Positions 6,570 to 64,000 of a DNA stretch of 64,000 nucleotides are shown piece after piece (position 1 is the stretch's first letter; the number at the start of each line of letters is the position of its first letter). Source of the DNA: Arion vulgaris (taxonomy: Eukaryota; Mollusca; Gastropoda; Stylommatophora; Arionidae); NCBI GenBank assembly GCA_020796225.1, contig CM036753.1, forward strand, positions 2,604,001-2,668,000, in the 5' to 3' direction. A model generated the notes under the pieces. The model did no database searches, was not told the origin of the DNA, and saw nothing but the letters and a program-made list of their open reading frames with translations. Made by a program: the position numbers and the translations under genes.

Positions 6570-7669
6570 AGATTCAGAGAGACACAGAGAAATATAAAAG
6601 CATACAGTAAGAAATATAGAAACACATAGAAAGAAATAGAGAGACAAATAGAAATGTTGAGATGAAAAGAGAGACATACAGAGATAAATAGTGATAGAGA
6701 GAGAGAAGTGAGAGGCAGAGAGATAACGAGAGAGAGATAGTGAGAGAGAGAGAGAGTAACGAGAGAGGCAGAGAGATAGTGATAGAGCGAGAGAGATAAC
6801 GAGAGAGAGAGAGATAGTGAGAGAGAGAGATAGTGATAGAGCGAGAGAGATAGTGAGAGAGATAGATAGTGAGAGAGAGATAGTGAGAGAGAGAGATAGT
6901 GAGAGAGCGAGAGATAGATAGATAGTGTGAGAGAGAGAGAGAGAGAGTAGTGAAGAAGAGATAGTAGGAGAGATAGTGAGAAGAGAGATAAGAGAGAGAG
7001 AGATAGTGAGAGAGAGATAACAGAGAGAGAGAGAGATAGTGAGAGAGAGAATGTAAAGAGATAGTGAAGAGAGATATGAGAGAGATAGTGAAGAGAGAGA
7101 GATAGTGAGGAGAGAGAGTGATGAGAGAAATAGTGAGAGAGATGGGAGAGAGAGATAGTGAGAGAAGAGAGAGAAGATGAAGTGAGAGAGAGAGAGATAG
7201 TGAGAGAGAAGGAGAGAAGAGATGGAGAGAGAGATAGTGAGAGAGAGATAGTGAGAGAGGAGATAGTAGAGGAGAGAGATAGTGAGAGAGAGAAGAGAGA
7301 GAGAGAGAGAGTAGATAGTAGAGAGAGAGATAGAAGAGATAGATAGGAGAGAGAGATAGTGAGAGAGAGAGAGATAGTGAGAGAGAGAGAGAGAATAGTG
7401 AAGAGATGAGAGAGAGAGATAGTGAGAGAGAGAGAGATAGTGAGAGAGAAAGGAGAGAGCGAGAAGATAGAGTGAGAGAGGAAGTAGAGAGAGAGAGAGA
7501 ATAGAGGATGATGAGAGTAGAGAGAGAGATGAGTAGAGATGAGAGAGAAGAAGAGAAGATAGTGAGAGAGAGATAGTGAGAGAGAGGAGAGAGAGAGATA
7601 GTGAGAGAGAGAGTGAGAGAGAAGATGTGAGAGAGAGAAGAAGTGAGAGAGAAGAGAGAAGGATGAGAG

Positions 7670-7706
<37 letters not shown>

Positions 7707-8024
7707 TAGAGAGAGAGAGAGATAGTGAGAGAGAGAGAGATAGTGAGAGAGAGAGATAGTGAGAGAGAGAGAGTAGGAGAGAGAGAAGATGAGAGAGAGA
7801 TAGAAGGATAGTGAAGAGAGAGATAGATGAGATGAGAGAGATAGTGAGAGAGAGAGAGATAGTGAAGAGAGAGATAGTGAAGAGAGATAGTAAGAGAGAT
7901 AGAGAGAGATAGTGAGAGAGAGAGAGATAGTGAGAGAGAGATAGTGAGAGAGAGAGATAGAGAGAGAGAGATAGTGAGAGAGAGATAGGAGAGAGAGAGA
8001 TAGTGAAGAGAGATAGAGAGAGAT

Positions 8025-8055
<31 letters not shown>

Positions 8056-10771
8056 GGTAGGAGAGAGAGAGATAAGAGAGAGAGATAGTGAGAGAGAGAG
8101 ATGAGAGGAGAGAGATAGTGAGAGAGAGAAGAGATAAGGAGAGAGAGAGATAGTGAGAGAGAGAGAGATAAGAGAGAGAGAGAGAGAGTGAGAGAGAGGA
8201 GAGAGATAAGAGAGATAGAGAGAGAGTAACGAGAGAAAGAGAGTAGTGAGAGAGATAACGAGAGAGAAGATAAGAGAGAGAGATAGTAGAGAGAGAGAGA
8301 TAACGAGAAGAGAGAGAGAAGTAGAGAGAGAGAATATGAGAGAGAGATAGAGAGAAGATAGAGGAGAGAGAGATAGTAGAGAGAGAAGTAACGGAGAGAG
8401 AGAGATAGTGAGAGAGAGAGATAACGAGAGAGAGAGAGATAGTGAGAGAGTAGTAGAGAGAGAGAGATAGAGGAGAGAGAGATAGTGGAGAGAGAGATAA
8501 CAGAAGAGAGAGAGAGATAGAGAGAGAGAGAGAAATAACAGAGAGAGAAGATAGTGAGAGAGAGATAACGAGAGAGAGAGATAACAGAGAGAGAGATAAC
8601 GAGAGAGAGAAACGAGAGAAAGAGAGAGATAACGAAGAGAGAGAGATAAAGAGAGAGAGATAAGAGAGAGAGAGAGATAGAGAGAGAGGATAACGAAAGA
8701 GAGAGAGAAAGAGATAACGAGAGAAAGAGATAGTGAGAGAGATAGATAGTGAGAGAGAGAGATAGTGAGAGAGAGAGAGATAGAGAGAGAGAGATAGTGA
8801 GAGAGAGAGAGAATAGACAGTGAGAGAGAGAGAGATAGTAGAGAGAGATAGTAGAGAGAGAGATAACGAGAGAGAGAGATAGTGAGAGAGAGAGATAACG
8901 AGAGAGAGAGAGAGATAGTGAGAGAGAGAGAAATAACGAGAGAGAGAAAGATAGAGAGAGATAGATAACGAGAGAGAGAGATAACGAGAGAGAGAAGATA
9001 ACGAAGAGAGAGATAACGAGAGAAAGAGAGAGAGAGATAACGAGAGAGAGAGATAACAAGAGAGAGAGATAACGAGAGAGAGAGATAACGAGAGAGAGCG
9101 ATAACGAAAGAGAGAGAGAGAAAGAGATAACGAGAGAAAGAGATAGTGAGACAGATAGATAGAGGAGAGAGATAGTGAGAGAGAGAGAGATAACGAGAGA
9201 GAGAGATAGTGAGAGAGAGAGATAGAGAGAAAGCGAGATAACGAGAGAGACAGATAGTGAGAGAGAGAGAGATAACGAGAGAGAGATAACGAGAGAGAGA
9301 GATAAGAGAGAGAGAGATGAGAGAAAGAGAGAGAGATAACGAGAGAGAGAGAGATTACAAGAGAGAGATAACGAGAGAGAAGATAACGAGAGAGAGGATA
9401 ACGAAAGAGAGAGAGAAAGAGATAACGAGAGAAAGAGATAGTGAGACAGATAGATAGTGAGAGAGAGATAGTGAGAGAGAGAGATAACGAGAGAGAGATA
9501 GTGGAGGAGAGAAGAGAGAAAGCGAGATAACGAGAGAGACAGATAGTGAGAGAGAGAGATATAACGAGAAAGAGATAACGAGAGAGAGGATAACTGAGAG
9601 AGAGAGATAGTGAGAGAGAGAGAGATAACGAGAGAGAGAGATAACGAGAGAGAGATAACGAGAGAGAGAGATAACGAGAGAGAGAGAGAGATAACGAGAG
9701 AGAGAGAGATAACGAGAGAGAGATAACGAGAGGGAGAGAGATAACGAGAGAGAGAGATAACGAGAGAGAGAGAGACAACGAGAGAAAGAGAGAGATAACG
9801 AGAGAGTGAGAGAGAGATAACAAGAGAGAGAGATAACGAGAGAGAGATAACGAGAGAGAGATAACGAGAGAGAGAGATAACGAGAGAGAGAGAACGAGAG
9901 AGAGAGAGAGATAACGAGAGAGAGATAGTGAGAGAGAGATAACGAGAGAGAGAGAGTGAGAGAGAGAGAGATAGTGAGAGAGAGATAACGAGAGAGAGAG
10001 AGATAACGAGAGAGAGAGATAGCGAGAGAGAGAGATAACGAGAGAGAGAGATATAACGAGAGAGAGAGAGAGATAACGAGAGAGAGATAACGAGAGAGAG
10101 AGATAACGAGAGAGAGAGAGAGAGAGAGATAACGAGAGAGAGAGAGAGAGATAACGAGAGAGAGAGATAACAGAGAGAGATAAGAGAGAGAGAGATAACG
10201 AGAGAGAGATAACGAGAGAGAGAGAGATAACGAGAGAGAGAGATAACGAGAGAGAGAGATAACGAGAGAGAGAGAGATAACGAGAGAGAGAGATAACGAG
10301 AGAGAGATAACGAGAGAGAGTAACGAGAGAGAGAGTGATAACGAGAAGAGAGAGATAACGAGGAGAGAGAAAGATAACGAGAGAAAAGATAACAGAGAGA
10401 GAGATAACGAGAGAGAGAGAGAGATAGTGAGAGAGAGAGATAACGAGAGAGAGAGATAGTGAGAGAGATAACGAGAGAGAGATAACGAGAGAGAGAGAGA
10501 TAACGAGAGAGAGATAACGAGAGAGAGATAGTGAGAGAGAGAGATAACGAGAGAGAGATAGTGAGAGAGAGATAACGAGAGAGAGAGATAACGAGAGAGA
10601 GAGATAACGAGAGAGATGAGAGAGAGATAACGAGAGAGAAGATAACGAGAGAGAGAGATAGAGAGAGAGAGATAGGAGAGAGAGAGATAACGAGAGAGAG
10701 ATAACAGAGAGAGATAACAGAAGATACGAGAGAGAGAGATAACAGAGAGAGAGATAACGAGAGAGAGAGAG

Positions 10772-10811
<40 letters not shown>
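6570..10811. repeat. 4.2-kb purine tract of gagagagagataacga and gagagagagatagtga units
   Basis: Almost no pyrimidines occur except inside ataacg and atagtg spacers that interrupt GA runs at about 12-18 bp spacing. The two spacers form separate domains: atagtg is frequent to about 8.8 kb and ataacg dominates afterwards. On the minus strand it is a polypyrimidine tract, with long artificial Leu/Ser frames. Between about 6950 and 8700 single-base losses are frequent. Confidence 0.97.
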
Positions 10812-14580: not shown

Positions 14581-14859
14581 GAGAAATATTTTTTTCCAAG
14601 AAAATTTGATGTAGTTTGAAATATTTCTTCTTCAGGTTATATTAAAATCAACCTCACCGGATTGTACACAATAGTAACAGATCTACGGTACACAGACGCG
14701 TTGTTCTAAAAATACATTATGGTAACATTGAAATATCGTGAGTAAACAACAATTTCACGAATTCCCGTGCACCTAACCCAGTCGACTTTGAAAGCGGAAA
14801 GCATATGACGTTATAATTGGGATACCGTTGTTTAGTTATAGGTGTATCTCGCTATTTGT

Positions 14860-16188
14860 ATGAAGCTATTGTATCATATTTGTTGGCTTATCAAAACTGA
14901 CATTGATATCACATTCATAATGAGTCTGAAGTGCACATTTATAACAATGCAGAAGGTTACAGTTTTACTATACCAACACTTCCGTAGGGAATCTAAGAGA
15001 GGTCATCTATATTGCGATATTCATAACCCTGAGAAACGAACGCAACTGGCGCTTGGTCTGAATAGAGAATCCTTTTCCCAATGGATTAAACAGGACACAA
15101 AGTGCATTAATATCAAGCAAGGAAGGAAAAGAACAATTGACGACTTTGACATAGATGTCATAAGACGGGAGCTCTTGAAAATGTTTGCGACAAATCAACT
15201 TGTAACTCTCAGGAAACTGAAATTAAAACTGCAATCAGATTGCAGCATAGACATTTCTAAAAGTACTCTATGGAAAATTATAAGAGCCGCCGGCTTCACC
15301 TTCAGAAAAACTATAGGCGGCAGGAATATTATTTGTGAAAAGCCACATTTAATTGCTGCCCGAAGTAAATACCTGAGGCAGATCCGTGAGCGGCGGAGGC
15401 AAGGCTATGATATTGTATATTTGGACGAATCCTGGGTCAATGCTCACCACACCAATGCTAAAGAATGGCAATCAGTAGACGGTGAACAGAAAAGAAAAAT
15501 ACCAAGCAGCAAAGGTCAGCGTATTATACTAACACATGCAGGAAGCAGTGAAGAAGGTCTTGTCCATGACGCTGGACTTATTTTCCAATAAAAAAGTACC
15601 GACTGTAGGGACTACCACACAGAAATGAATGGACATATTTTCAGGCACTGGATGGAGAAAGATCTACTTCCAATTCTAAACAGACCATCATGCTTGGTAA
15701 TGGATAACGCATCCTATCACAACGCAGTATCAGCGGAAGACAAAGTACCAACTGCATCAAATACAAAAGATCAAATTAGGACTTGGCTTGCTAAGGAAAA
15801 TGTCAGCTTCGATGATACATATTTGAAACCCGAGTTGTTGCACCTGGTGAGGATGACAAATAAGACAAAGGTGTTTCATATTGACAAAATCATTGCGAAA
15901 TACGGCCACACGTCTTTGCGACTACCTCCATATCATGCTCCCCTCAATCCGATAGAGCGTGTCTGGGCTAAAGTAAAAGGGCAAGTTGCCGAACAGAACA
16001 GGACGTTTAAAATGTGTGATGTTGAAGTTCTGACACGTGAGTCCCTCTCAATGATAGACATGCAGTTCTGGAAGAAGTGTGCTGAACATGTGCTCCGAGA
16101 GGAAGACGAGTACTGGCACCGAGATGGATTACAATTTGTCCAGCCAGTAACAATTATCAACCTCATGGAATCGTCAGATTCGGGATGA
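14860..16188 (+). pseudogene. Transposase with DDE/D fold, one in-frame stop
   Basis: A single frame of about 443 codons is interrupted only by TAA at 15589-15591; frame is kept on both sides. The N-terminal part shows two helix-turn-helix-like regions (around RTQLALGLNRESFSQWIK and LRKLKLKLQSDCSIDISKS), as expected for the paired-type DNA-binding domain. Catalytic residues are visible: Asp in YLDESW (codon at 15424), Asp in LVMDNASYHN (15703) and Glu in PLNPIERVW (15955). There are 83 residues between the second Asp and the Glu, far more than the 34-41 of classical Tc1/mariner and close to the DD82E signature of the Sailor group. The ATG at 14860 is the first in frame; 14920 and 14947 are alternatives. 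The stop makes the copy probably inactive, though cleanly so. Confidence 0.9.
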
Positions 16189-26249: not shown

Positions 26250-26408
26250 CTTCTGTAAAACTCTGAGAAACTGTCTCTCTGTGTTGTCTGCACTGGGAGA
26301 GGATGGATTCGGAGTAAATTTGCGAGCAAACCTGGGCGATATTCCTCCATTCTCAGGTTGTTTATCAAAATCATATCTCGCATAGTAATCATTCTGTGGT
26401 ACAGGTTG
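26250..26408 (-). CDS. nAChR alpha-like: nAChR exon: cytoplasmic M3-M4 loop
   Basis: 53 whole codons. It begins QPVPQNDYYARYDFDK and ends in DNTERQFLRVLQK. The terminal ERQxLRVLQKV-type sequence is typical of the amphipathic stretch before M4 in molluscan and other protostome nicotinic subunits. The Ser/Pro/Asn-rich middle (TPNPSSPSADN) is the usual disordered, poorly conserved loop with candidate phosphorylation sites. The acceptor is a good pyrimidine tract ending tttgtttcag; the donor is AAG/gtaaaa, a weaker site. It starts in phase 0, matching the end of both M3 exons. The 3' remnant of a Penelope-like element begins only about 12-15 bp beyond the donor. The next expected exon (M4 and stop) was looked for down to position 1 and not found. 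Confidence 0.88.
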
Positions 26409-32458: not shown

Positions 32459-32673
32459 CGCTCCTTTGGGCCCCCGGTTCTTTTTATGGCTGGGGGTTAT
32501 TTCCTCCAGATCCAAGTTCAGAAAAAGAATTTTGGCCAACACGCCAAAGAAAATCTTTTTGAGAAGTCTGGGTACTTCACGTCCTCGGGAGCCTTTGTAG
32601 TGTACATTGAGAACAACAGCTGTCATTGCGGTGGCGGAGGATACAATGGCGATTGTGATGCCATAATACAAAC
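32459..32673 (-). CDS. nAChR alpha-like: nAChR alternative exon M3, copy 2 (downstream in the transcript)
   Basis: 215 bp: two bases plus 71 codons. LYYGITIAIVSSATAMTAVV followed by LNVHYKGSRGREVPRLLKKI is a second, intact M3 segment. The exon ends HKKNRGPKGA, a shorter and more basic tail than its twin. Acceptor ttcttacag, donor GCG/gtgagt; both splice sites are well formed and there is no stop or frameshift, so the copy appears to be under selection rather than decaying. Start and end phases equal those of the exon at 32802-33028. Alternatives are a recent duplicate not used in mRNA, or one used only in certain tissues. Confidence 0.92.
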
Positions 32674-32801: not shown

Positions 32802-33028
32802 CATTCCTTTAACTCCTTTAGAACCACGACCTTGTTTAGAGGCTGCGCTCGGAACTTCTTCCAAATCCAGAGATATAAAAAAGATTTTGGCCACAACACC
32901 AAAGAAAATCTTTTTGGTTAATTTGGGTATCTCTCGTCCACGTGATCCCTTGTGATGAATGTTGAGAACAAAAACTGTCATGGCAGTGGCGAAGGATACA
33001 ATGGTCATGGTAATACCATAGTACAGAC
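32802..33028 (-). CDS. nAChR alpha-like: nAChR alternative exon M3, copy 1 (upstream in the transcript)
   Basis: 227 bp: two bases completing the Gly codon, then 75 codons. LYYGITMTIVSFATAMTVFV plus LNIHHKGSRGREIPKLTKKI is segment M3 and the start of the cytoplasmic loop; the exon ends SKQGRGSKGVKGM. Acceptor ttattccag, donor ATG/gtaagt. A second M3 exon of the same phase begins 128 bp downstream. By hand count the two share about 43 of the first 57 residues. They differ within M3 (MTIVSFATAMTVFV against IAIVSSATAMTAVV) and are unrelated in the last 15-18 residues. Skipping or using either keeps the frame, but both together would not. Confidence 0.93.
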
Positions 33029-38786: not shown

Positions 38787-38897
38787 CTACAAGAGGTAAA
38801 TCTTCAGATGTTGGCGGCATTTTGTCAGCGACTATCATTAAAAAAACAGTCATAGACAGCAGTGTTGTGATTCCCATAGCTATCTTCTCTCCAGAGT
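38787..38897 (-). CDS. nAChR alpha-like: nAChR exon: pore-lining segment M2
   Basis: 111 bp (2 + 36 codons + 1). The translation [19 protein letters not shown] followed by [18 protein letters not shown] is the complete M2 pore helix and M2-M3 linker. Numbered in the standard way, -1' is Glu, 0' Lys, 9' Leu (the gate) and 20' Asp, giving a cation-selective pore. Position 2' is Ala rather than the common Thr/Ser, which lines the narrowest part of the pore. The acceptor (cttgaacag) has a weak pyrimidine tract; the donor is GTAG/gtaagt, a strong site. The final split codon G+GT joins correctly to either of the two M3 exons. No minisatellite borders this donor. Confidence 0.94.
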
Positions 38898-39560: not shown

Positions 39561-39707
39561 TATTGTAAGTAAGCAAATGAGACTATAAATTCGTTCTTAA
39601 TTTCTCTCTCCCCCTCTTTCTGTCTCTCTTTCTCTCTGTATATATATAAATATATGACATGCTAATTTCTACCTAATCTGAAAACATGTTCAATTATCAA
39701 TTTATTC

Positions 39708-40374
39708 CTGACAGTAAAACATAAAATTAATTTCTTGCTGATAGTAAAGCATAAAATTAATTTCTTGCTGATAGTAAAACATAAAATTAATTTCTTGCTG
39801 ACAGTAAAACATAAAATCAATTTCTTGCTGACAGTAAAACATAAAATTAATTTCTTGCTGACAGTAAAACATAAAATTAATTTCTTGCTGACAGTAAAAC
39901 ATAAAATTAATTTCTTGCTGACAGTAAAACATAAAATCAATTTCTTGCTGACAGTAAAACATAAAATTAATTTCTTGCTGACAGTAAAACAAAAAATTAA
40001 TTTCTTGCTGACAGTAAAACATAAAATCAATTTCTTGCTGACAGTAAATCATAAAATCAATTTCTTCCTGACAGTAAATCATAAAATCAATTTCTTGCTG
40101 ACAGTAAAACATAAAATTAATTTCTTGCTGACAGTAAAACATAAAATCAATTTCTTGCTGACAGTAAATCATAAAATCAATTTCTTCCTGACAGTAAATC
40201 ATAAAATCAATTTCTTGCTGACAGTAAATCATAAAATCAATTTCTTGCTGACAGTAAATCATAAAATCAATTTCTTGCTAACCTGAAGGCATATAAAATC
40301 AATTTCTTGCTGACAGTAAAACATAAAATCAATTTCTTCCTGACAGTAAAACATAAAATCAATTTCTTGCTAAC
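39708..40374. repeat. 30-bp tandem array starting at the M1 exon donor, about 22 copies
   Basis: The plus-strand unit is ataaaatcaatttcttgctg plus acagtaaaac. Two units at the exon side carry aacctgaaggcat in place of the usual tail: one is the exon end and donor itself, the other an exact copy at 40277-40300. The array touches the exon without a gap. Confidence 0.96.
40277..40300 (-). promoter_or_regulatory. Duplicated (decoy) 5' splice site of the M1 exon
   Basis: On the minus strand, tatgccttcag/gttagcaag is an exact repeat of the real exon-intron boundary at 40375. A splicing machine choosing it would add about 98 bases of array to the mRNA. Confidence 0.7.
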
Positions 40375-40525
40375 CTGAAGGCATATAAAATCCGAGAAGA
40401 GCCACAAGCGTGATAAGGATGCATGGAAAAACCATGTTGAAAACATAGAATAGTGGTCGTCTTTTAATCCGTATGTGGTTTTTTATAAACACATAGGGTA
40501 CTGGACAACAGGAGAACGTAACCAC
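40375..40525 (-). CDS. nAChR alpha-like: nAChR exon: loop C vicinal cysteines and transmembrane segment M1
   Basis: 50 codons plus one base. VVTFSCCPVPYVFIKNHIRI contains the adjacent Cys pair that defines alpha subunits and contacts agonist. The Pro/Tyr pattern after it is kept, although the usual CCPEPYPD is altered to CCPVPYVF. Next come KRRPLFYVFNMVFPC and ILITLVALLGFYMPS, the classical M1 helix with its conserved Pro-Cys. The split codon G+AC joins to the M2 exon as PSDSGEK, exactly the family sequence. Acceptor ctattccag, donor CAG/gttagc. Beyond the donor lies a 30-bp minisatellite that carries one exact extra copy of the exon end and donor (40277-40300). An altered residue pattern near the agonist site could affect pharmacology; that is inference. 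Confidence 0.94.
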
Positions 40526-44579: not shown

Positions 44580-44794
44580 CAGATTATTATACGTCTCCAC
44601 TCTCTCTCTATTCTGTATGACTTGATACTATCTCCACGTTTCTCTCTTCTTCTGTATGACTTGTTACATACTCCTCTCTCTCTCTCTCTCTCTCTTTCTG
44701 TATGACTTGATACATACTCCTCCATTCTCTCTCTTTCTGTATGACTTGTTACATACCCTCCACTCTCTCTCTCTCTTGTATGACTTGTTACATC

Positions 44795-44826
<32 letters not shown>

Positions 44827-45564
44827 TCTGATACTTTTACATACTCCCTCCACTCTCTCTCTCTCTTCTGTATGACTTTGTACATACCCTCCACTTCTCT
44901 CTCTCTTCTGTATGACTTGTTACATACTCCTCCACTCTCTCTCTCTCTCTCTCTTTCTGTATGACTTGTTACATACCCCCTCCACTCTCTCTCTCTCTCT
45001 TCTGTATGACTTGTTACATACTCCCTCCCCTCTCTCTCTCTCTTCTGTATGACTTGTTACATACTCCCTCCACTCTCTCTCTCTCTTCTGTATGACTTGT
45101 CCCTCACTCCCTCCATCACACCTCCACTCTCTCTCTCTCTCTTCTGTATGACTTGTTACATACTCCCTCCACTCTCTCTCTCTTCTGTATGACTTGTTAC
45201 ATACTCCCTCCACTCTCTCTCTCTCTCTCTTCTGTATGACTTGTTACATTACCCTCTCTCTCGTTTTCACTCTCTCTCTCTCTTCTGTATGACTTGTTAC
45301 ATACACCCTCCACTCTCTCTCTCTCTTCTGTATGACTTGTTACATACTACCTCCACTCTCTCTCTCTCTTCTGTATGACTTGTTACATACTCCCTCCACT
45401 CTCTCTCTCTCTTCTGTATGACTTGTTACATACCCCCTCCACTCTCTCTCTCTCTCTCTTCTGTATGACTTGTTACATACCCCTCCACTCTCTCTCTCTC
45501 TCTGTATGACTTTTACATACCCCTCCACTCTCTCTCTCTTCTGTATGACTTGTTACATACTCCC

Positions 45565-45599
<35 letters not shown>

Positions 45600-46530
45600 G
45601 TATGACTTGTTACATAACCCCTCCACTCTCTCTCTCTCTTCTGTATGACTTGTTACATACTCCCTCCACTCTCTCTCTCTCTCTTCTGTATGACTTGTTA
45701 CATACACCCTCCACTCTCTCTCTCTCTTCTGTATGACTTGTTACATACTCCCTCCACTTCTCTTTCTCTTCTCTTCTGTATGACTTGTTACATACTCCCT
45801 CCACTCTCTCTCTCTCTTCTGTATGACTTGTTACATACCCCTCCACTCTCCTCTCTCTTCTGTATGACTTTTACATACCCCTCCACTCTCTCTCTCTTCT
45901 GTATGACTTGTTACATACTCCCTCCACTCTCTCTCTCTCTCTCTCTCTCTTCTGTATGACTTGTTACATACCCCCTCCACTCTCTCTCTCTCTCTTCTGT
46001 ATGACTTGTTACATACTCCCTCCACTCTCTCTCTCTCTTCTGTATGACTTGTTACATACTCCCTCCACTCTCTCTCTCTCTCTGTATGACTTGTTACATA
46101 CTCCCTCCACTCTCTCTTTCTCTCTCTCTTCTGTATGACTTGTTACATACTACCTCCACTCTCTCTCTCTCTTCTGTATGACTTGTTACATACTCCCTCC
46201 ACTCTCTCTCTCTCTCTCTTCTGTATGACTTGTTACATACTCCCTCCACTCTCTCTCTCTCTCTCTTCTGTATGACTTGTTACATACCCCTCCACTCCTC
46301 TCTCTCTTCTGTATGACTTGTTACATACTCCCTCCACTCTCTCTCTCTCTCTCTCTTCTGTATGACTTGTTACATACTCCCTCCACTCTCTCTCTCTCTC
46401 TTCTGTATGACTTGTTACATACTCCCTCCACTCTCTCTCTCTCTCTCTTCTGTATGACTTGTTACATACTCCCTCCACTCTCTCTCTCTCTGTCCACTAA
46501 CTAGATACCTACCTCCCTCTCTCTGTCCTC
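44580..46530. repeat. CT-rich ~45-50-bp tandem array, about 42 copies
   Basis: The unit is tctgtatgacttgttacata plus ctccctccact and a (ct)n run of variable length. The last two units before the LBD exon have the form ccactaactagatacctacc plus tccctctct, the sequence of the exon's own donor. On the receptor's sense strand the array is GA-rich. Confidence 0.95.
46494..46528 (-). promoter_or_regulatory. Duplicated (decoy) 5' splice site of the LBD exon
   Basis: GGAG/gtaggtatctagttag on the minus strand repeats the genuine boundary at 46557 with about 14 bases of exon end, 44 bp further into the intron. Confidence 0.65.
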
Positions 46531-46556
46531 TCTCTACCCACTAACTAGATACCTAC

Positions 46557-46697
46557 CTCCCTCTCTTGTCCGAAACTAACGAGCTCCCATTCTGTACTAT
46601 TCTTATAGTTCGAAATATCCCCATCTTCCCCGCCCATCAGCACCAAGTTCAATCCATTATCATCATACGTCCAGGAAGCAAACTCCAGAATACAATG
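46557..46697 (-). CDS. nAChR alpha-like: nAChR exon: second Cys of the Cys-loop to the strand before loop C
   Basis: This is 47 whole codons, phase 0 at both ends. It opens HCILEFASWTYDDNGLNL, the usual C-(S/T)-(M/L)-(K/E)-F-(G/A)-S-W-(T/S)-Y segment that closes the Cys-loop. Exactly 13 residues separate its Cys from the Cys of the previous exon, as in all nicotinic receptors. It continues through ISNYKNSTEWELVSFGQERE, matching the strand-9 region with the WEL motif. NST is a potential N-glycosylation sequon. The acceptor is tttatttcag and the donor is GAG/gtaggt. The last 14 or so exon bases, with the donor, are duplicated 44 bp further into the intron (46494-46528), where a CT-rich minisatellite starts. 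Confidence 0.92.
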
Positions 46698-47899: not shown

Positions 47900-48050
47900 A
47901 AACATTAATCAAGACAAATAATAGCAAAACGGGAACATTGCTTAGTGTATTTGAGGACCTCGTCGTTGCTACAAAGTTCGTGCACTGCCGCTGAGATCTT
48001 TCTGTGTAAGAATGAGATCGGAGCACACATAGTTACTTACTGAAGTGCAA
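47900..48050 (+). mobile_element. SINE-like element, family F, seed of the 46-bp array
   Basis: tcgttgctacaaagttcgtg and ccgctgagatctttctgtgt match family F. The next part, gtaagaatgagatcggagca, is already the first unit of the array. The normal 3' continuation (atgatggtc and atca tail) is replaced by the tandem copies. Confidence 0.85.
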
Positions 48051-51000
48051 TGTAAGAAAGAGATCGGAGCACACATAGTTACTCACTGAAGTGCAATATA
48101 AGAAAGAGATCGGAGCACACATAGTTACTCACTGAAGTGCAATGTAAGAAAGAGATCGGAGCACACATGGTTACTCACTGAAGTGCAATTAGAAAGAGAT
48201 CGGAGCACACTAGTTACTCACTGAAGTGCAATGTAAGAAAGAGATCGGAGCACACATAGTTACTCACTGGTCAATGTAAGAAGAGATCAGGACACACATA
48301 GTTACTCACTGAAGTGCAATGTAAGAAAGAGATCGGAGCACACATAGTTACTCACTGAAGTGCAATGATAAGAGATCGGAGCACACATTGTTACTCACTG
48401 AAGTGCAATGTAAGAAAGAGATCGGAGCACACATGATTACTCACTGAAGTGCAATGTAAGAAAGAGATCGACACACATGGTTACTCACTGAAGTGCAATG
48501 TAAGAAGAGATCGACACACATAGTTACTCACTGAGTACAATGTAAAAAAGATCGAGCACACATATTGCTCACTGAAGTGCAATGTAAGAAAGAGATCGGA
48601 GCACACATGAGTTACTCATGAAGTGCAATGTAGAAGAGATCGGAGCACACATAGTTACTCACTGAAGTGCAATGTAAGAGAGTCGGAGCACAATAGTTAC
48701 TCACTGAAGTGCAATGTAAGAAGAGATCGAGCACATGTTACTCACTGAAGTGCAATGTAAAAGAGATCGGAACACTAATTTACTCACTAAGTGCAATGTA
48801 AAAGAGATCGAGCACACATAGTTACTCACTGAAGTGCAATGTAAGAAGAAGTCAGAAGAGACACTGATAGTTACTCACTGAAGTGCAATATAAGAAAGAA
48901 TCGAGCACAATGGTTACTCACTGAGTGCAATGTAAGAAGAGATCGAGCAACAATATTCTCACTGAAGTGCAATGTAAGAAAGAGATCGGAGCACACATGA
49001 GTTACTCACTACGAATGCAATGTAAGAAAGAGATCAGGATCACAAGTTACTCACTGAAGTGCAATGTAAGAAGAGATCGGAGCAACATAGTTACTCACTG
49101 AAGTGCAATGTAACTAAAGAGATCGGAGCACACATGTTACTCACTGAAGTGCAATGTAGAAGAGATCAGGACACATGTTACTCACTGAAGTGCAATGTAA
49201 GAAAGAATCGAGCACACATGTTACTCACAAAGTGCAATGTAAGAAGAATCGGAGCAACATAGTTACTCACTGAAGTGCAATGTAGAAAGAGATCGAGCAC
49301 ACATAGTTACTCACTGAAGTGCAATGTAAGAAAGAGATCGGAGCACACATGGTTACTCACTGAAGTGCAATGTTAGAAAGAGATCGGAGCACACATAGTT
49401 ACTCACTGAAGTGCAATGTAAGAAAGAGATCGGAGCACACATAGTTACTCACTGAAGTGCAATGTAAGAAAGAGATCGGAGCACACATGGTTACTCACTG
49501 AAGTGCAATGTAAGAAAGAGATCGGAGCACATAGTTACTCACTGAAGTGCAATGTAAGAAGAGATCGGAGCACACAAGTTACTCACTGAAGTGCAATGTA
49601 GAAGAGATCGGAGCACACATTGTTACTCACTGAAGTGCAATTTAAGAAAGAGATCGGAGCACACATTGTTACTCACTGAAGTGCAATGTAAGAAAGAGAT
49701 CGGAGCACACATAGTTACTCACTGAAGTGCAATGTAAAAGAGATCGAGCACACATGTTACTCACTGAAGTGCAATGTAAAGAGAGATCTGAGCATACAGT
49801 TACTCACTGAAGTGCAATATAAGAAAGAGATCGGAGCACACATAGTTACTCACTGAAGTGCAATGTAAGAAAGAGATCGGAGCACACATTGTTACTCACT
49901 GAAGTGCAATGTAAGAAAGAGATCGGAGCACACATAGTTACTTACTGAAGTGCAATGTAAGAAAGAGATCGGAGCACACATAGTTACTCACTGAAGTGCA
50001 ATGTAAGAAAGAGATCGGAGCACACATAGTTACTCACTGAAGTGCAATGTAAGAAAGAGATCGAGCACACATTGTTACTCACTGAAGTGCAATGTAAGAA
50101 AGAGATCGGAGCACACATAGTTACTCACTGAAGTGCAATGTAAGAAAGAGATCGAGCACACATTGTTACTCACTGAAGTGCAATGTAAGAAAGAGATCGG
50201 AGCACACATAGTTACTCACTGAAGTGCAATGTAAGAAAGAGATCAGGAGCACACATAGTTACTCACTGAAGTGCAATGTAAAAGAGATCGGAGCACACAT
50301 TGTTACTCACTGAAGTGCAATGTAAGAAAGAGATCGAGCACACATTGTTACTCACTGAAGTGCAATGTAAGAAAGAGATCGGAGCACACATAGTTACTCA
50401 CTGAAGTGCAATGTAAGAAAGAGATCGGAGCACACATAGTTACTCACTGAAGTGCAATGTAAGAAAGAGATCGGAGCACACATGTTACTCACTGAAGTGC
50501 AATGTAAGAGATGCAAGAGATCGAGAGTCACACATGGTTACTCACTGAAGTGCAATGTAAGTAAGAGATCGGAGCACACATAGTTACTCACTGAAGTGCA
50601 ATGTAAGAAAGAGATCGGAGCACACATAGTTACTCACTGAAGTGCAATGTAAGAAAGAGATCGGAGCACACAGAGTTACTCACTGAAGTGCAATGTAAGA
50701 AAGAGATCGGAGCACACATAGTTACTCACTGAAGTGCAATGTAAGAAAGAGATCGGAGCACACATAGTTACTCACTGAAGTGCAATGTAAGAAAGAGATC
50801 GGAGCACACATAGTTACTCACTGAAGTGCAATGTAAGAAAGAGATCGGAGCACACATTGTTACTCACTGAAGTGCAATGTAAGAAAGAGATCGGAACACA
50901 CATAGTTACTCACTGAAGTGCAATGTAAGAAAGAGATCGGAGCACACATGGTTACTCACTGAAGTGCAATGTAAGAAAGAGATCGGAGCACACATGTTAC

Positions 51001-54000
51001 TCACTGAAGTGCAATGTAAGAAGAGATCAGGCACACATGAGTTACTCACTGAAGTGCAATGTAAGAAAGAGATCGGAGCACACATAGTTACTCACTGAAG
51101 TGCAATGTAAGAAAGAGATCGGAGCACACATAGTTACTCACTGAAGTGCAATGTAAGAAAGAGATCGGAGCACACATAGTTACTCACTGAAGTGCAATGT
51201 AAGAAAAAGATCGGAGCACACATTGTTACTCACTGAAGTGCAATGTAAGAAAGAGATCGGAGCACACATGGTTACTCACTGAAGTGCAATGTAAGAAAGA
51301 GATCGGAGCACACATAGTTACTCACTGAAGTGCAATGTAAGAAAGAGATCGGAGCACACATGGTTACTCACTGAAGTGCAATGTAAGAAAGAGATCGGAG
51401 CACACATAGTTACTTACTGAAGTGCAATGTAAGAAAGAGATCGGAGCACACATAGTTACTCACTGAAGTGCAATGTAAGAAAGAGATCGGAGCACACAGA
51501 GTTACTCACTGAAGTGCAATGTAAGAAAGAGATCGGAGCACACATAGTTACTCACTGAAGTGCAATGTAAGAAAGAGATCGGAGCACACATAGTTACTCA
51601 CTGAAGTGCAATGTAAGAAAGAGATCGGAGCACACATAGTTACTCACTGAAGTGCAATGTAAGAAAGAGATCGGAGCACACATAGTTACTCACTGAAGTG
51701 CAATGTAAGAAAGAGATCGGAGCACACATAGTTACTCACTGAAGTGCAATGTAAGAAAGAGATCGGAGCACACATAGTTACTCACTGAAGTGCAATGTAA
51801 GAAAGAGATCGGAGCACACATAGTTACTCACTGAAGTGCAATGTAAGAAAGAGATCGGAGCACACATTGTTACTCACTGAAGTGCAATGTAAGAAAGAGA
51901 TCGGAGCACACATAGTTACTCACTGAAGTGCAATGTAAGGAAGAGATCGAGCACACATTGTTACTCACTGAAGTGCAATGTAAGAAAGAGATCGGAGCAC
52001 ACATTGTTACTCACTGAAGTGCAATGTAAGAAAGAGATCGGAGCACACATAGTTACTCACTGAAGTGCAATGTAAGAAAGAGATCGGAGCACACATAGTT
52101 ACTCACTGAAGGTGCAAATGCTAAGAAAGAGATCGGAGCACACATGGTTACTCACTGAAGTGCAATGTAAGAAAGAGATCGAGAGCAGTACTACTGAGGC
52201 ATGGAGAGATACATGACTCACTGAAGTGCAATGTAAGAAAGAGATCGAGCACACATAGTTACTCACTGAAGTGCAATGTAAGAAAGAGATCGGAGCACAC
52301 ATAGTTACTCACTGAAGTGCAATGTAAGAAAGAGATCGGAGCACACATAGTTACTCACTGAAGTGCAATGTAAGAAAGAGATCGGAGCACACATGGTTAC
52401 TCACTGAAGTGCAATGTAAGAAAGAGATCGGAGCACACATTGTTACTCACTGAAGTGCAATGTAAGAAAGAGATCGGAGCACACATAGTTACTCACTGAA
52501 GTGCAATGTAAGAAAGAGATCGAGCACACATGGTTACTCACTGAAGTGCAATGTAAGAAAGAGATCGGAGCACACATTGTTACTCACTGAAGTGCAATGT
52601 AAGAAAGAGATCGGAGCACACATAGTTACTCACTGAAGTGCAAGAAGAAAGAGATCAGCACACTGTTACTCACTGAAGTGCAATGTAGAAAGAGATCGGA
52701 GCACACATGGTTACTCCATCAATGAAAGATGCAATTATGTAAGAAGAGATCGGAGCACAAATAGTTACTCACTGAAGTGCAATGTAAGAAAGAGATCGGA
52801 GCACACATAGTTACTCACTGAAGTGCAATGTAAGAAAGAGATCGGAGCACACATAGTTACTTACTGAAGTGCAATGTAAGAAAGAGATCGGAGCACACAT
52901 AGTTACTCACTGAAGTGCAATGTAAGAAAGAGATCGGAGCACACATAGTTACTCACTGAAGTGCAATGTAAGAAAGAGATCGAGCACACATGGTTACTCA
53001 CTGAAGTGCAATGTAAGAAAGAGATCGAGCACACATAGTTACTCACTGAAGTGCAATGTAAGAAAGAGATCGGAGCACATATTGTTACTCACTGAAGTGC
53101 AATGTAAGAAAGAGATCGAGCACAATAGTTACTCACTGAAGTGCAATGTAAGAAAGAGATCGGAGCACACATAGTTACTCACTGAAGTGCATGAAGAATC
53201 GCCATAGTTATCTGAAGTGCAATAAGAAGAATCGGAGCACACATTGTTACTCACTGAAGTGCAATGTAAGAAAGAGATCGGAGCACACATGAGTTACTCA
53301 CTGAAGTGCAATGTAAGAAGAGATCGGAGCACACATGGTTACTCACTGAAGTGCAATGTAAGAAAGAGATCGGAGCACACATAGTTACTCACTGAAGTGC
53401 AATGTAGAAGAGAAGAGATCGAGAGCACACATGTTACTCACTGAAGTGCAATGTAAGAAAGAGATCGGAGCACACATTGTTACTCACTGAAGTGCAATGT
53501 AAGAAAGAGATCGGAGCACACATAGTTACTCACTGAAGTGCAATGTAAGAAAGAGATCGGAGCACACATAGTTACTCACTGAAGTGCAATGTAAGAAAGA
53601 GATCGGAGCACACATTGTTACTCACTGAAGTGCAATGTAAGAAAGAGATCGGAGCACACATAGTTACTCACTGAAGTGCAATGTAAGAAAGAGATCGGAG
53701 CACACATGGTTACTCACTGAAGTGCAATGTAAGAAAGAGATCGGAGCACACATAGTTACTCACTGAAGTGCAATGTAAGAAAGAGATCGGAGCACACATG
53801 GTTACTCACTGAAGTGCAATGTAAGAAAGAGATCGGAGCACACATAGTTACTCACTGAAGTGCAATGTAAGAAAGAGATCGGAGCACACATAGTTACTCA
53901 CTGAAGTGCAATGTAAGAAGAGATCAGAGCACACATGGTTACTCACTGAAGTGCAATGTAAGAAAGAGATCGGAGCACACATGTTACTCACTGAAGTGCA

Positions 54001-57000
54001 ATGTAAGAAAGAGATCAGGAGCACATAGTTACTCACTGAAGTGCAATGTAAGAAAGAGATCGGAGCACACATGGTTACTCACTGAAGTGCAATGTAAGAA
54101 AGAGATCGGAGCACACATAGTTACTCACTGAAGTGCAATGTAAGAAAGAGATCGGAGCACACATAGTTACTCACTGAAGTGCAATGTAAGAAAGAGATCA
54201 TGAGCACATAGTTACTCACTGAAGTGCAATGTAAGAAAGAGATCGGAGCACACATAGTTACTCACTGAAGTGCAATGTAAGAAAGAGATCGGAGCACACA
54301 TGGTTACTCACTGAAGTGCAATGTAAGAAAGAGATCGGAGCACACATAGTTACTCACTGAAGTGCAATGTAAGAAAGAGATCGGAGCACACATAGTTACT
54401 CACTGAAGTGCAATGTAAGAAAGAGATCGAGCACACATAGTTACTCACTGAAGTGCAATGTAAGAAAGAGATCGGAGCACACATTGTTACTCACTGAAGT
54501 GCAATGTAAGAAAGAGATCGAGCACACATAGTTACTCACTGAAGTGCAATGTAAGAAAGAGATCGGACACACATGTTACTCACTGAAGTGCAATGTAAGA
54601 CGGCACAGCTCATGAGTCAGAGAAGATCAGCACACAGTTACTCACTGAAGTGCAATGTAAGAAAGAGATCGGAGCACACATAGTTACTCACTGAAGTGCA
54701 ATGTAAGAAAGAGATCGAGCACACTAGTTACTCACGAGAAGTGCAATGTAAGAAAGAGATCGGAGCACACATGGTTACTCACTGAAGTGCAATGTAAGAA
54801 AGAGATCGGAGCACACATAGTTACTCACTGAAGTGCAATGTAAGAAAGAGATCGAGCACACATAGTTACTCACTGAAGTGCAATGTAAGAAAGAGATCGG
54901 AGCACACATGGTTACTCACTGAAGTGCAATGTAAGAAAGAGATCGGAGCACACATAGTTACTCACTGAAGTGCAATGTAAGAAAGAGATCGGAGCACACA
55001 TAGTTACTCACTGAAGTGCAATGTAAGAAAGAGATCAGAGCACACATAGTTACTCACTGAAGTGCAATGTAAGAAAGAGATCGGAGCACACATAGTTACT
55101 CACTGAAGTGCAATGTAAGAAAGAGATCGAGCACACATAGTTACTCACTGAAGTGCAATGTAAGAAAGAGATCGGAGCACACATAGTTACTCACTGAAGT
55201 GCAATGTAAGAAAGAGATCGGAGCACACATAGTTACTCACTGAAGTGCAATGTAAGAAAGAGATCGGAGCACACATTGTTACTCACTGAAGTGCAATGTA
55301 AGAAAGAGATCGAGCACACATAGTTACTCACTGAAGTGCAATGTAAGAAAGAGATCGGAGCACACAAAGTTACTCACTGAAGTGCAATGTAAGAAAGAGA
55401 TCGGAGCACACATTGTTACTCACTGAAGTGCAATGTAAGAAAGAGATCGGAGCACACATAGTTACTCACTGAAGTGCAATGTAAGAAAGAGATCGGAGCA
55501 CACATAGTTACTCACTGAAGTGCAATGTAAGAAAGATCGGAGCACACATGTTACTCACTGAAGTGCAATGTAAGAAGAGATCGGAGCACACATAGTTTCA
55601 CTGTCAATGAAGAATTCTCAATGCAGTAAGAAAGAGATCGGAGCACACATAGTTACTCACTGAAGTGCAATGTAAGAAAGAGATCGGAGCACACATGTTA
55701 CTCACTGAAGTGCATATGAAGAGAGATCGGAGCACACATAGTTACTCACTGAAGTGCAATGTAAGAAAGAGATCGGAGCACACATAGTTACTCACTGAAG
55801 TGCTATGTAAGAAGAGATCGGAGCACACATGGTTACTCACTGAAGTGCAATGTAAGAAAGAGATCGAGCACACATAGTTACTCACTGAAGTGCAATGTAA
55901 GAAAGAGATCGAGCACACATAGTTACTCACTGAAGTGCAATGTAAGAAAGAGATCGGAGCACACATGGTTACTCACTGAAGTGCAATGTAAGAAAGAAGA
56001 TCAGGAGCACACATAGTTACTCACTGAAGTGCAATGTAAGAAAGAGATCGAGCACACATAGTTACTCACTGAAGTGCAATGTAAGAAAGAGATCGAGCAC
56101 ACATAGTTACTCACTGAAGTGCAATGTAAGAAAGAGATCGAGCACACATTGTTACTCACTGAAGTGCAATAAGAAAGAGATCGAAGCACACATTGTTACT
56201 CACTGAAGTGCAATGTAAGGAAGAGATCGAGCACACATTGTTACTCACTGAAGTGCAATGTAAGAAAGAGATCGAGCACACATAGTTACTCACTGAAGTG
56301 CAATGTAAGAAAGAGATCGAGCACACATAGTTACTCACTGAAGTGCAATGTAAGAAAGAGATCGGAGCACACATAGTTACTCACTGAAGTGCAATGTAAA
56401 AAAGAGATCGGAGCACACATAGTTACTCACTGAAGTGCAATGTAAGAAAGAGATCGGAGCACACATAGTTACTCACTGAAGTGCAATGTTAGAAAGAGAT
56501 CGGAGCACACATAGTTACTCACTGAAGTGCAATGTAAGAAAGAGATCGAGCACACATAGTTACTCACTGAAGTGCAATGTAAGAAAGAGATCTGAGCACA
56601 CATAGTTACTCACTGAAGTGCAATGTAAGAAAGAGATCGGAGCACACATAGTTACTCACTGAAGTGCAATGTAAGAAAGAGATCGGAGCACACATTGTTA
56701 CTCACTGAAGTGCAATGTAAGAAAGAGATCGAGCACACATTGTTACTCACTGAAGTGCAATGTAAGAAAGAGATCGGAGCACACATTGTTACTCACTGAA
56801 GTGCAATGTAAGAAAGAGATCGGAGCACACATAGTTACTCACTGAAGTGCAATGTAAGAAAGAGATCGGAGCACACATAGTTACTCACTGAAGTGCAATG
56901 TAAGAAAGAGATCGAGCACACATTGTTACTCACTGAAGTGCAATGTAAGAAAGAGATCGGAGCACACATAGTTACTCACTGAAGTGCAATGTAAGAAAGA

Positions 57001-57190
57001 GATCGAGCACACATAGTTACTCACTGAAGTGCAATGTGAAGAGATCTACACAATAGTTACTCATAAGTGCAATGTAAGAAAAGATCGACATACATGTTAC
57101 TCACTGAAGTACAATGTAAAAAATGGCACATAGTTACTACTGAAGTGCAATTAAGAAAAGATCTACATACTATGTTATACTGAAGTGAAA
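47985..57190. repeat. 46-bp tandem array, about 195-200 copies, grown from a SINE
   Basis: The unit is gtaagaaagagatcggagca plus cacatagttactcactgaag and tgcaat. The main variable position gives catagtta, cattgtta or catggtta. The array runs over 9.2 kb in the intron between the two Cys-loop exons. Units at 48180-49260, 52090-52230, 52640-52740, 53190-53240, 55590-55640 and from 57030 have many single-base losses. No copy of the SINE's 3' tail is found at the right end. Confidence 0.97.
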
Positions 57191-58662: not shown

Positions 58663-59106
58663 TTGTGTCAGCCTACCTGTGTATGCAACTATGCAGAATA
58701 CAACGACATATGTCAGTCTACCTGTGTATCCAATACAACGATATATGTCAGCCTACCTGTGTATCCAATACAACGACATATGTCAGCCTACCTGTGTATC
58801 CAATACAACAACATATGTCAGCCTACCTGTGTATCCAATACAACGACATATGTCAGCCTACCTGTGTATCCAATACAACGACATATGTCAGCCTACCTGT
58901 GTATCCAATACAACGACATATGTCAGCCTACTTGTGTATCCAATACAACGACATATGTCAGCCTACCTGTGTATCCAATACAACGACATATGTCAGCCTA
59001 CTTGTGTATCCAATACAACGACATATGTCAGCCTACCTGTGTATCCAATACACCGACATATGTCAGCATACCTGTGTATCCAATACAACGACATATGTCA
59101 TCTTAC
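58663..59106. repeat. 35-bp tandem array made of splice-donor copies, 12 copies
   Basis: The plus-strand unit is caatacaacgacatatgtca plus gcctacctgtgtatc. On the receptor's sense strand each unit reads gatacacag/gtaggctgac, the last 9 exon bases plus a good 5' splice site. The real boundary at 59107 is the right-hand end of the series. Array and exon are joined without a gap. Confidence 0.96.
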
Positions 59107-59239
59107 CTGTGTATCAAAAGGGAAATACTTGACATCAATGGCACATGAACTTTTGAAGATGACCATCGCTAGCCACATGACATCTCCGGTAGATTTGAGT
59201 ATCACGTTTGTACTCACAGACTCGGATGTGATATGTGCA
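59107..59239 (-). CDS. nAChR alpha-like: nAChR exon: ligand-binding domain, first half of the Cys-loop
   Basis: One carried-over base plus 44 codons. The translation ends in [15 protein letters not shown], the family signature holding the first Cys of the Cys-loop and the FPFD motif. Before it, [20 protein letters not shown] matches the beta strands that precede the loop in nicotinic subunits. The acceptor is a pyrimidine/AT stretch ending tttcag at 59240-59245, and the donor is CAG/gtaaga (gt at 59105-59106). The exon ends in phase 0 directly before the second half of the Cys-loop, which is encoded by the exon at 46557-46697. The donor is immediately followed, in transcript direction, by a 35-bp minisatellite made of copies of this same exon-intron boundary. 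Identification rests on hand translation. Confidence 0.93.
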
Positions 59240-62400: not shown

Positions 62401-64000
62401 ATTGAAGTAAATTTATACAACTTTGAAATGTCATAAACAATGTGAGAAATTGAAGTAAATTTATACAACTTTGAAATGTCATAAACAATGTGAGGAATTG
62501 AAGTAAATTTATACAACTTTGAAATGTCATGAACAATGTGAGAAATTGAAGTAAATTTATACAACTTTGAAATGTCATGAACAATGTGAGAAATTGAAGT
62601 AAATTTATACAACTTTGAAATGTCATGAACAATGTGAGAAATTGAAGTAAATTTATACAACTTTGAAATCTCATGAACAATGTGAGAAATTGAAGTAAAT
62701 TTATACAACTTTGAAATGTCATGAACAATGTGAGAATTTGAAGTAAATTTATACAACTTTGAAATGTCATGAACAATGTGAGAAATTGAAGTAAATTTAT
62801 ACAACTTTGAAATGTCATGAACAATGTGAGGAATTGAAGTAAATTTATACAACTTTGAAATGTCATGAACAATGTGAGAAATTGAAGTAAATTTATACAA
62901 CTTTGAAATGTCATGAACAATGTGAGGAATTGAAGTAAATTTATACAACTTTGAAATGTCATGAACAATGTGAGAAATTGAAGTAAATTTATACAACTTT
63001 GAAATGTCATGAACAATGTGAGAAATTGAAGTAAATTTATACAACTTTGAAATGTCATGAACAATGTGAGAAATTGAAGTAAATTTATACAACTTTGAAA
63101 TGTCATGAACAATGTGAGGAATTGAAGTAAATTTATACAACTTTGAAATGTCATGAACAATGTGAGAAATTGAAGTAAATTTATACAACTTTGAAATGTC
63201 ATGAACAATGTGAGAAATTGAAGTAAATTTATACAACTTTGAAATGTCATGAACAATGTGAGAAATTGAAGTAAATTTATACAACTTTGAAATGTCATGA
63301 ACAATGTGAGAAATTGAAGTAAATTTATACAACTTTGAAATGTCATGAACAATGTGAGAAATTGAAGCAAATTTATACAACTTTGAAATGTCATGAACAA
63401 TGTGAGGAATTGAAGTAAATTTATACAACTTTGAAATGTCATGAACAATGTGAGGAATTGAAGTAAATTTATACAACTTTGAAATGTCATGAACAATGTG
63501 AGGAATTGAAGCAAATTTATACAACTTTGAAATATCATGAACAATGTGAGAAATTGAAGTAAATTTATACAACTTTGAAATGTCATGAACAATGTGAGAA
63601 ATTGAAGTAAATTTATACAACTTTGAAATGTCATGAACAATGTGAGAAATTGAAGTAAATTTATACAACTTTGAAATGTCATGAACAATGTGAGAAATTG
63701 AAGTAAATTTATACAACTTTGAAATGTCATGAACAATGTGAGAAATTGAAGTAAATTTATACAACTTTGAAATGTCATGAACAATGTGAGGAATTGAAGC
63801 AAATTTATACAACTTTGAAATGTCATGAACAATGTGAGAATTGAGCAAATTTATACAACTTTGAAATGTCATGAACAATGTGAGGAATTGAAGTAAATTT
63901 ATACAACTTTGAAATGTCATGAACAATGTGAGGAATTGAAGCAAATTTATACAACTTTGAAATGTCATGAACAATGTGAGGAATTGAAGCAAATTTATAC
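59500..64000. repeat. 48-bp tandem array, over 90 copies, runs past the window end
   Basis: The regular unit, from about 59600, is aaatgtcatgaacaatgtga plus ggaattgaagtaaatttata and caactttg. The left edge (59500-59600) holds a partial duplication of aataataaactaagatagag. Variant positions are gRgaattg/gagaaattg, aagtaaat/aagcaaat and catgaac/cataaac. Since 48 is a multiple of three and the minus strand has no stops, about 700-residue artificial frames result. Confidence 0.97.

Follow-up and report, generated by a model that had tools for sequence, protein, structure and literature searches.

A minisatellite in a nicotinic-type receptor gene of Arion vulgaris repeats an exon–intron junction and is very probably a tolerated 'mirage'

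Minisatellites that repeat exon–intron boundaries have been described in amphioxus under the name of mirages, in the Adh3, globin, troponin C and PGBD5 genes (passages of PMC3087553 and PMC3902484, the latter for troponin C and PGBD5). In the passages of PMC3087553, unit lengths are given as 10–72 bp for Adh3 and about 150–160 bp for the globins, many units carry AG/GT, and donor and acceptor boundaries are both affected; the Adh3 data, together with reverse transcription polymerase chain reaction (RT–PCR) on the globins, suggest that regular splicing is undisturbed. In human IFI6 (6-16), a minisatellite supplies multiple splice donor sites (Turri, Cuin and Porter 1995, as cited), and passages of PMC4526556 report the use of two downstream repeat units as donors, giving three messenger RNA (mRNA) species. 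Related proposals are the Rogers model of intron gain, in which a segment with AGGT undergoes tandem genomic duplication (mentioned in passages of PMC3087553; see also PMC4974935 and PMC3443670), and the possible formation of novel introns in human paralogues from repeats at exon–intron boundaries (passages of PMC2812944). Here we describe a 35-bp minisatellite at the end of a Cys-loop exon (exon A) of a nicotinic acetylcholine receptor (nAChR)-type gene of the gastropod Arion vulgaris. The gene lies on the minus strand of a 64-kb window of contig CM036753.1, the window being the whole stretch analysed, a single sequence, whose positions are used as coordinates throughout.

According to the initial annotation of this DNA, no described system of this kind was known; this view does not survive comparison with the amphioxus mirages or with the human multiple-donor minisatellite published in 1995. 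A literature search by titles and the starts of abstracts, with subscription papers mostly outside its scope, returned no boundary minisatellite in a mollusc, and the passages of PMC12783039 (earthworm metallothionein), PMC2576457, PMC3045353 and PMC2812944 contain no boundary repeat.

The exon A array is a repeated exon–intron junction

Exon A (59107–59239, minus strand, 133 nucleotides (nt)) encodes the Cys-loop of an alpha-10-like, nAChR-type subunit. It ends in ...FPFDTQ and is followed by a GTAAGA donor at 59101–59106 (minus strand), so that the border reads CAG/GTAAGA, where the slash marks the exon–intron boundary. Its translation matches the ligand-binding domain Neur_chan_LBD (Pfam PF02931; 44 bits, cut-off 26) as well as nAChR subunits in the PDB, from E = 1.7e-10; the PDB query was 47 amino acids long, its first three letters (VIS) being inexact, and the best stretches listed start at least at residue 7. 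These matches and the donor bear out the annotation of a Cys-loop receptor exon with a genuine ACACAG/GTAAGA donor. With a few residues 5′ of the exon included (59253–59107), the region is 91.8% identical over 49 residues to P0079 of the stylommatophoran land snail Candidula unifasciata, the top value among the tblastn matches covering exon A. Taken by itself, this similarity of the protein points to a land snail as the probable host. A search for relatives of the receptor returned 154; among the best 120 listed, the five best by E-value are all from molluscs, one of them a bivalve, and the top relative is from Elysia chlorotica (76% identity).

The array had been annotated as beginning exactly where the exon ends, whereas its first unit, copy 0, starts from 59115 and takes in the final 9 nt of exon A. 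These 9 nt, GATACACAG (59107–59115, minus strand), open copy 0, as placed by the edge given by Tandem Repeats Finder (TRF) at 59115 and by the listing of units, and they encode D-T-Q in codons shared by exon and array. At the true donor the exon end reads CAG/GTAAGATG. What remains of copy 0, together with the 12 copies after it, ten with AG/GT and two with AA/GT, occupies 58663–59106 (minus strand), and TRF reports a period of 35, 12.0 copies and 96% matches at 58697–59115; as a departure from chance, the array is not in doubt. Since copy 0 starts 9 nt inside exon A, the unit, made up of 9 exon nt and 26 intron nt, is a tandemly repeated exon–intron junction that includes both sides of the real boundary, the property by which a mirage is recognized. 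A blastn search with the exon A boundary gave 11 matches in all and none in the window outside its own array.

The motif TACACA[AG]GT is present in 13 copies, one at the true boundary and 12 downstream, and successive copies are spaced by 35 nt in 11 cases and by 45 nt in one. Thus, the predicted row of 12 decoys every 35 nt exists apart from a single irregular gap. The further prediction that every unit carries an ACACAG/GTAGGC donor is correct for eight of the 12 units, which read CAG/GTAGGC; one has GTATGC, one GTAGAC and two, at 59001 and 58931, have AA/GT and pair, as modelled, much more weakly with U1. Modelled against the 5′ end of U1, the true donor forms a duplex of −11.0 kcal/mol; the eight CAG/GTAGGC copies reach −10.7 kcal/mol (within 0.3 kcal/mol of the true donor), two others −8.0 and −7.2 kcal/mol and the two AA/GT copies −4.2 kcal/mol. 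Donor-like strength of this order is rare: among the 8,056 other GT sites on both strands of the window, 0.12% pair with U1 as well as the eight copies do. Read-through of the true donor yields ...FPFDTQVR and then a stop, that is, two additional residues (VR) before termination, and the anticipated premature stop upon use of a decoy is therefore encoded.

Repeats at two further donors of the gene

Exon B (46557–46697, minus strand; HCILEFASWTYDD...GQERE) is the next exon after exon A, from which it is separated by an intron of 12,409 nt (intron A). Its donor is straddled by a repeat with a 44-bp unit (46484–46571, minus strand; TRF and blastn), which includes 10 exon nt and has one downstream copy of AGAGAGGGAG/GTAGGTATC; there are only about two copies. 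Exon C (40375–40525, minus strand) encodes transmembrane segment 1 (TM1), ends in GFYMPS plus 1 nt and has a CAG/GTTAGC donor, straddled by a 30-bp array (39696–40392, minus strand; TRF and blastn) that starts with the exon-derived GATTTTAT. One faithful copy, at 40300–40269, matches the donor and the 18 exon nt before it without change; GT is lost in 21 of the 22 downstream units, a count from which an AGGT at 39674, slightly outside the array as delimited by TRF and amid degenerate sequence, was left out. AG/GT is therefore kept in 10 of 12 units at exon A and in the single downstream copy at exon B (1/1), and in only 1 of 22 at exon C. Read-through leads to early stops at the exon B and exon C donors as well. 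The repeats at the three donors run head to tail with TRF periods of 35, 44 and 30, and their units are unrelated to one another.

Directly after the exon B repeat lies a 43-bp GA/CT-rich array (44600–46535), the unit of which weakly resembles the exon B boundary. In a comparison of this GA-rich unit with the boundary, 37 of 1,000 shuffles scored as high. The 43-bp array is perhaps, judging from this resemblance, a decayed boundary repeat.

Straddling copies were sought by blastn using 40 nt on each side of the 14 boundaries of the seven exons located, a tandem copy within 500 nt being counted. They were found at three of seven donors (11 copies at A, one at B and one at C) and at none of seven acceptors. 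Among 3,000 random positions outside array interiors, 239 (0.080) had a straddling tandem copy; against this empirical rate, P is 0.014 for the donors and 0.095 over all 14 boundaries, and the comparison of donors with acceptors gives 0.096 (Fisher's test, one-sided). The empirical rate replaces an earlier analytic null of 0.045 per boundary, which was based on 39 hand-merged TRF arrays with periods below 10 dropped, and it is less favourable to enrichment. TRF arrays make up 64% of the bases of the window and, with 8% of random positions straddled, the seeding of arrays at boundaries is expected here. Straddling arrays in this window are thus only mildly unexpected, and there is a hint of a donor bias that goes beyond what one gene can settle.

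Origin and tolerance of the repeated junctions

The exon A array is, with high probability, a mirage in this sense: a neutral tandem duplication that has been tolerated, the copies of which are donor-like because they descend from a donor and not because they were selected as decoys. Most likely, the array arose as a side product of a genome rich in minisatellites and does not represent a new device. In the mechanism we propose, a 35-bp segment consisting of the last 9 exon nt and the first 26 intron nt would have been tandemly duplicated, and the duplicate would have grown to 13 copies by unequal exchange or slippage, as in ordinary minisatellite dynamics. In all seven relatives listed, the exon A segment ends in FDxQ: FDTQ in two (Candidula P0079 and Bulinus P0005), FDSQ in three, FDEQ in one and FDAQ in one. 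Because the 9 shared nt are the coding sequence of this conserved motif, the direction of copying would appear to be from the exon into the array. The position of the nAChR intron at exon A is one that we take to be old. If amphioxus is a guide, most transcripts probably use the first donor, which has stayed intact; the copies would then be removed together with the intron. Because they lie within the intron, behind this donor, they contribute nothing to mRNA that is spliced there, which is probably why they are tolerated. Some transcripts may leak into unproductive mRNA, an alternative that the initial annotation also raised. Copies 3′ of a donor would cost little, whereas copies 5′ of an acceptor would offer extra acceptors ahead of the true one, which could explain a bias towards donors, if the bias is real.

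The distribution of differences among the copies is consistent with descent without selection for donor function. Copies 1–11 show seven differences from the consensus, at six positions, and four of the seven lie inside the 9 donor nt, against 1.8 expected if they were uniform (copies 0 and 12 excluded); copies 3 and 5 have one donor difference in common, so the independent events may be fewer. The donor slice in this count is ACAGGTAGG, and the four donor differences fall within CAGGTAGGC as well. When the divergent copy 12 is added, four of 14 differences are in the donor, against 3.6 expected. Within the units, the donor nucleotides are thus no better conserved than the other positions, and maintenance of decoys is not indicated.

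Some observations weigh against the array being a neutral by-product. The excess of straddled donors and the donor-side bias hint at something beyond random seeding, and passages on amphioxus mirages include an acceptor-side case, in globin BflGb6, which argues against a general rule that such repeats are tolerated at donors only. In addition, all seven differences of the distal copy 12 lie outside the donor, and eight of the 12 copies retain near-full modelled U1 pairing (−10.7 versus −11.0 kcal/mol). Homogenization inside a young array would explain this retention and is a candidate cause.

Intron A contains other donor-like sites besides the 12 exon A units. A 46-bp array at 48005–57163 (minus strand; TRF) carries TCA/GTGAGTAA in its sense unit, with 183 exact copies in the intron, and these sites have a modelled U1 pairing of about −7.3 kcal/mol, weaker than that of the strong exon A copies. 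The array comprises about 200 copies, which read CTCTTTCTTACATTGCACTTCAGTGAGTAAC on the sense strand and combine a pyrimidine-rich, acceptor-like stretch with an overlapping GTGAGT donor-like site.

The RNA of the exon A array folds, as modelled, more stably than 100 of 100 shuffles (z = −2.81). The unit holds a self-complementary decamer, GACATATGTC, with 10 exact matches, which could be the source of this predicted stability. The mean unpaired fraction is predicted to be 0.38 at the true donor and 0.11–0.74 at the copies. Structure therefore fails to distinguish the true donor, which is predicted to be no more accessible than the copies, and concealment of the copies by RNA structure finds no support.

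Alternative explanations

The initial annotation suggested that the array might act as a sink for the U1 small nuclear ribonucleoprotein, or protect or weaken the true donor. In its functional form, this explanation has the copies binding U1 or competing with the true donor, thereby tuning receptor output by unproductive splicing, with a stop after two residues and decay of the mRNA. It draws on the near-equality of eight of the 12 copies with the true donor in modelled U1 pairing, on the immediate stop upon read-through and on the report, in passages of PMC4526556, that two downstream units of human IFI6 serve as donors in three mRNA species. However, the donor nucleotides are conserved no better than the rest of the unit, with four of seven (or four of 14) differences falling in the donor, and donors are absent from 21 of the 22 units of the exon C array, the two grounds on which we regard a U1 sink as unsupported. 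The 183 unrelated TCA/GTGAGTAA sites of intron A and a predicted RNA structure that does not discriminate between donors likewise lend no support to sink, protection or weakening, and amphioxus mirages are reported, in passages of the published accounts, without aberrant mRNAs or interference with regular splicing. We consider a functional decoy array unlikely. By comparison, an error of assembly, in which the copy number or even the array itself would be an artefact of collapse or expansion, seems very improbable. Tandem arrays are commonly misassembled, but this one has seven differences at six positions in copies 1–11 and a divergent distal copy, as real arrays do, and the same architecture recurs at three different donors.

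Another possibility is that the units, with AG joined to GT, act as zero-length exons in recursive splicing, or provide raw material for the birth of introns by the tandem-AGGT route. The units do hold CAG/GTAGGC, an acceptor-like AG beside a donor, and the pyrimidine fraction before the AG, 0.47–0.53 in three units measured, is close to that of the real acceptors of exons A and D (0.53); the other four real acceptors measured (F excluded) are richer in pyrimidines, at 0.65–0.76. Passages of PMC3087553 propose that introns can be gained from mirages, whereas the site concerned here is an existing exon end and not an exon interior. We therefore give recursive splicing or intron birth scarcely any credence. 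A more far-reaching scenario extends the neutral reading to repeat-rich snail genomes in general: minisatellites would arise preferentially at donors, where downstream copies are neutral for splicing and copies upstream of acceptors are not, donor-born arrays would seed much of intron expansion, and some of them, like that of exon A, would divert measurable amounts of receptor transcript into unproductive mRNA. We put this forward as speculation that is probably wrong as a whole.

Remaining exons and surroundings

Motif searches, together with tblastn queries from 13 of the 120 relatives listed, located the exons 3′ of exon A. In addition to exons B and C, they comprise exon D (38787–38897; TM2), two versions of the TM3 exon, E1 (32802–33028) and its tandem duplicate E2 (32459–32673), and exon F (26250–26408; M3–M4 loop), all on the minus strand and, by the blastn test, devoid of a straddling repeat. 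AG and GT borders are present on all seven exons, and a single open frame runs across A, B, C, D, either E1 or E2, and F when joined. A search of the window by tblastn with E up to 1 revealed no exon for TM4. E1 and E2 (33028–32802 and 32673–32459) have compatible phases and open frames, and make a candidate pair of mutually exclusive receptor exons on this sequence evidence.

Elsewhere in the window, TRF identifies a 4.1-kb AG-rich tract at 6696–10808 and a 48-bp array of 4.4 kb that runs off the window end at 64000. A Tc1/mariner-type transposase sequence at 14842–16188 (plus strand) consists of two reading-frame pieces with a stop between them; the second piece matches DDE_3 (6.7e-13), and the first contains a weak Tc3-type helix-turn-helix below the cut-off. 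Searches of the window with Rfam (gathering threshold) and ARAGORN gave no matches.

Comparison with known systems

The main value of the exon A array is that its structure is now explained. With it, exon-boundary minisatellites, reported from amphioxus and human, are extended to a mollusc, in which a single gene bears three of them. It also raises the genome-wide question of whether minisatellites originate at donors more frequently than they do at acceptors, as well as that of how the splicing machinery picks the first of a dozen near-identical donors.

In likeness to human IFI6, a minisatellite here would provide several putative splice donors to one transcript; unlike in IFI6, where passages of PMC4526556 report that downstream units are used, use of a unit here would give an immediate stop. 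The locus shares with the AGGT route of intron gain the tandem duplication of a segment carrying AG/GT, and differs from it in that an existing exon–intron boundary has been duplicated and no new intron is seen in the coding sequence. Finally, it resembles the amphioxus mirages in having tandem, minisatellite-sized units that span a real boundary and include sequence of both exon and intron. The differences are that it is found in a mollusc and affects three donors of one gene and none of its seven acceptors, whereas amphioxus has mirages of both kinds.
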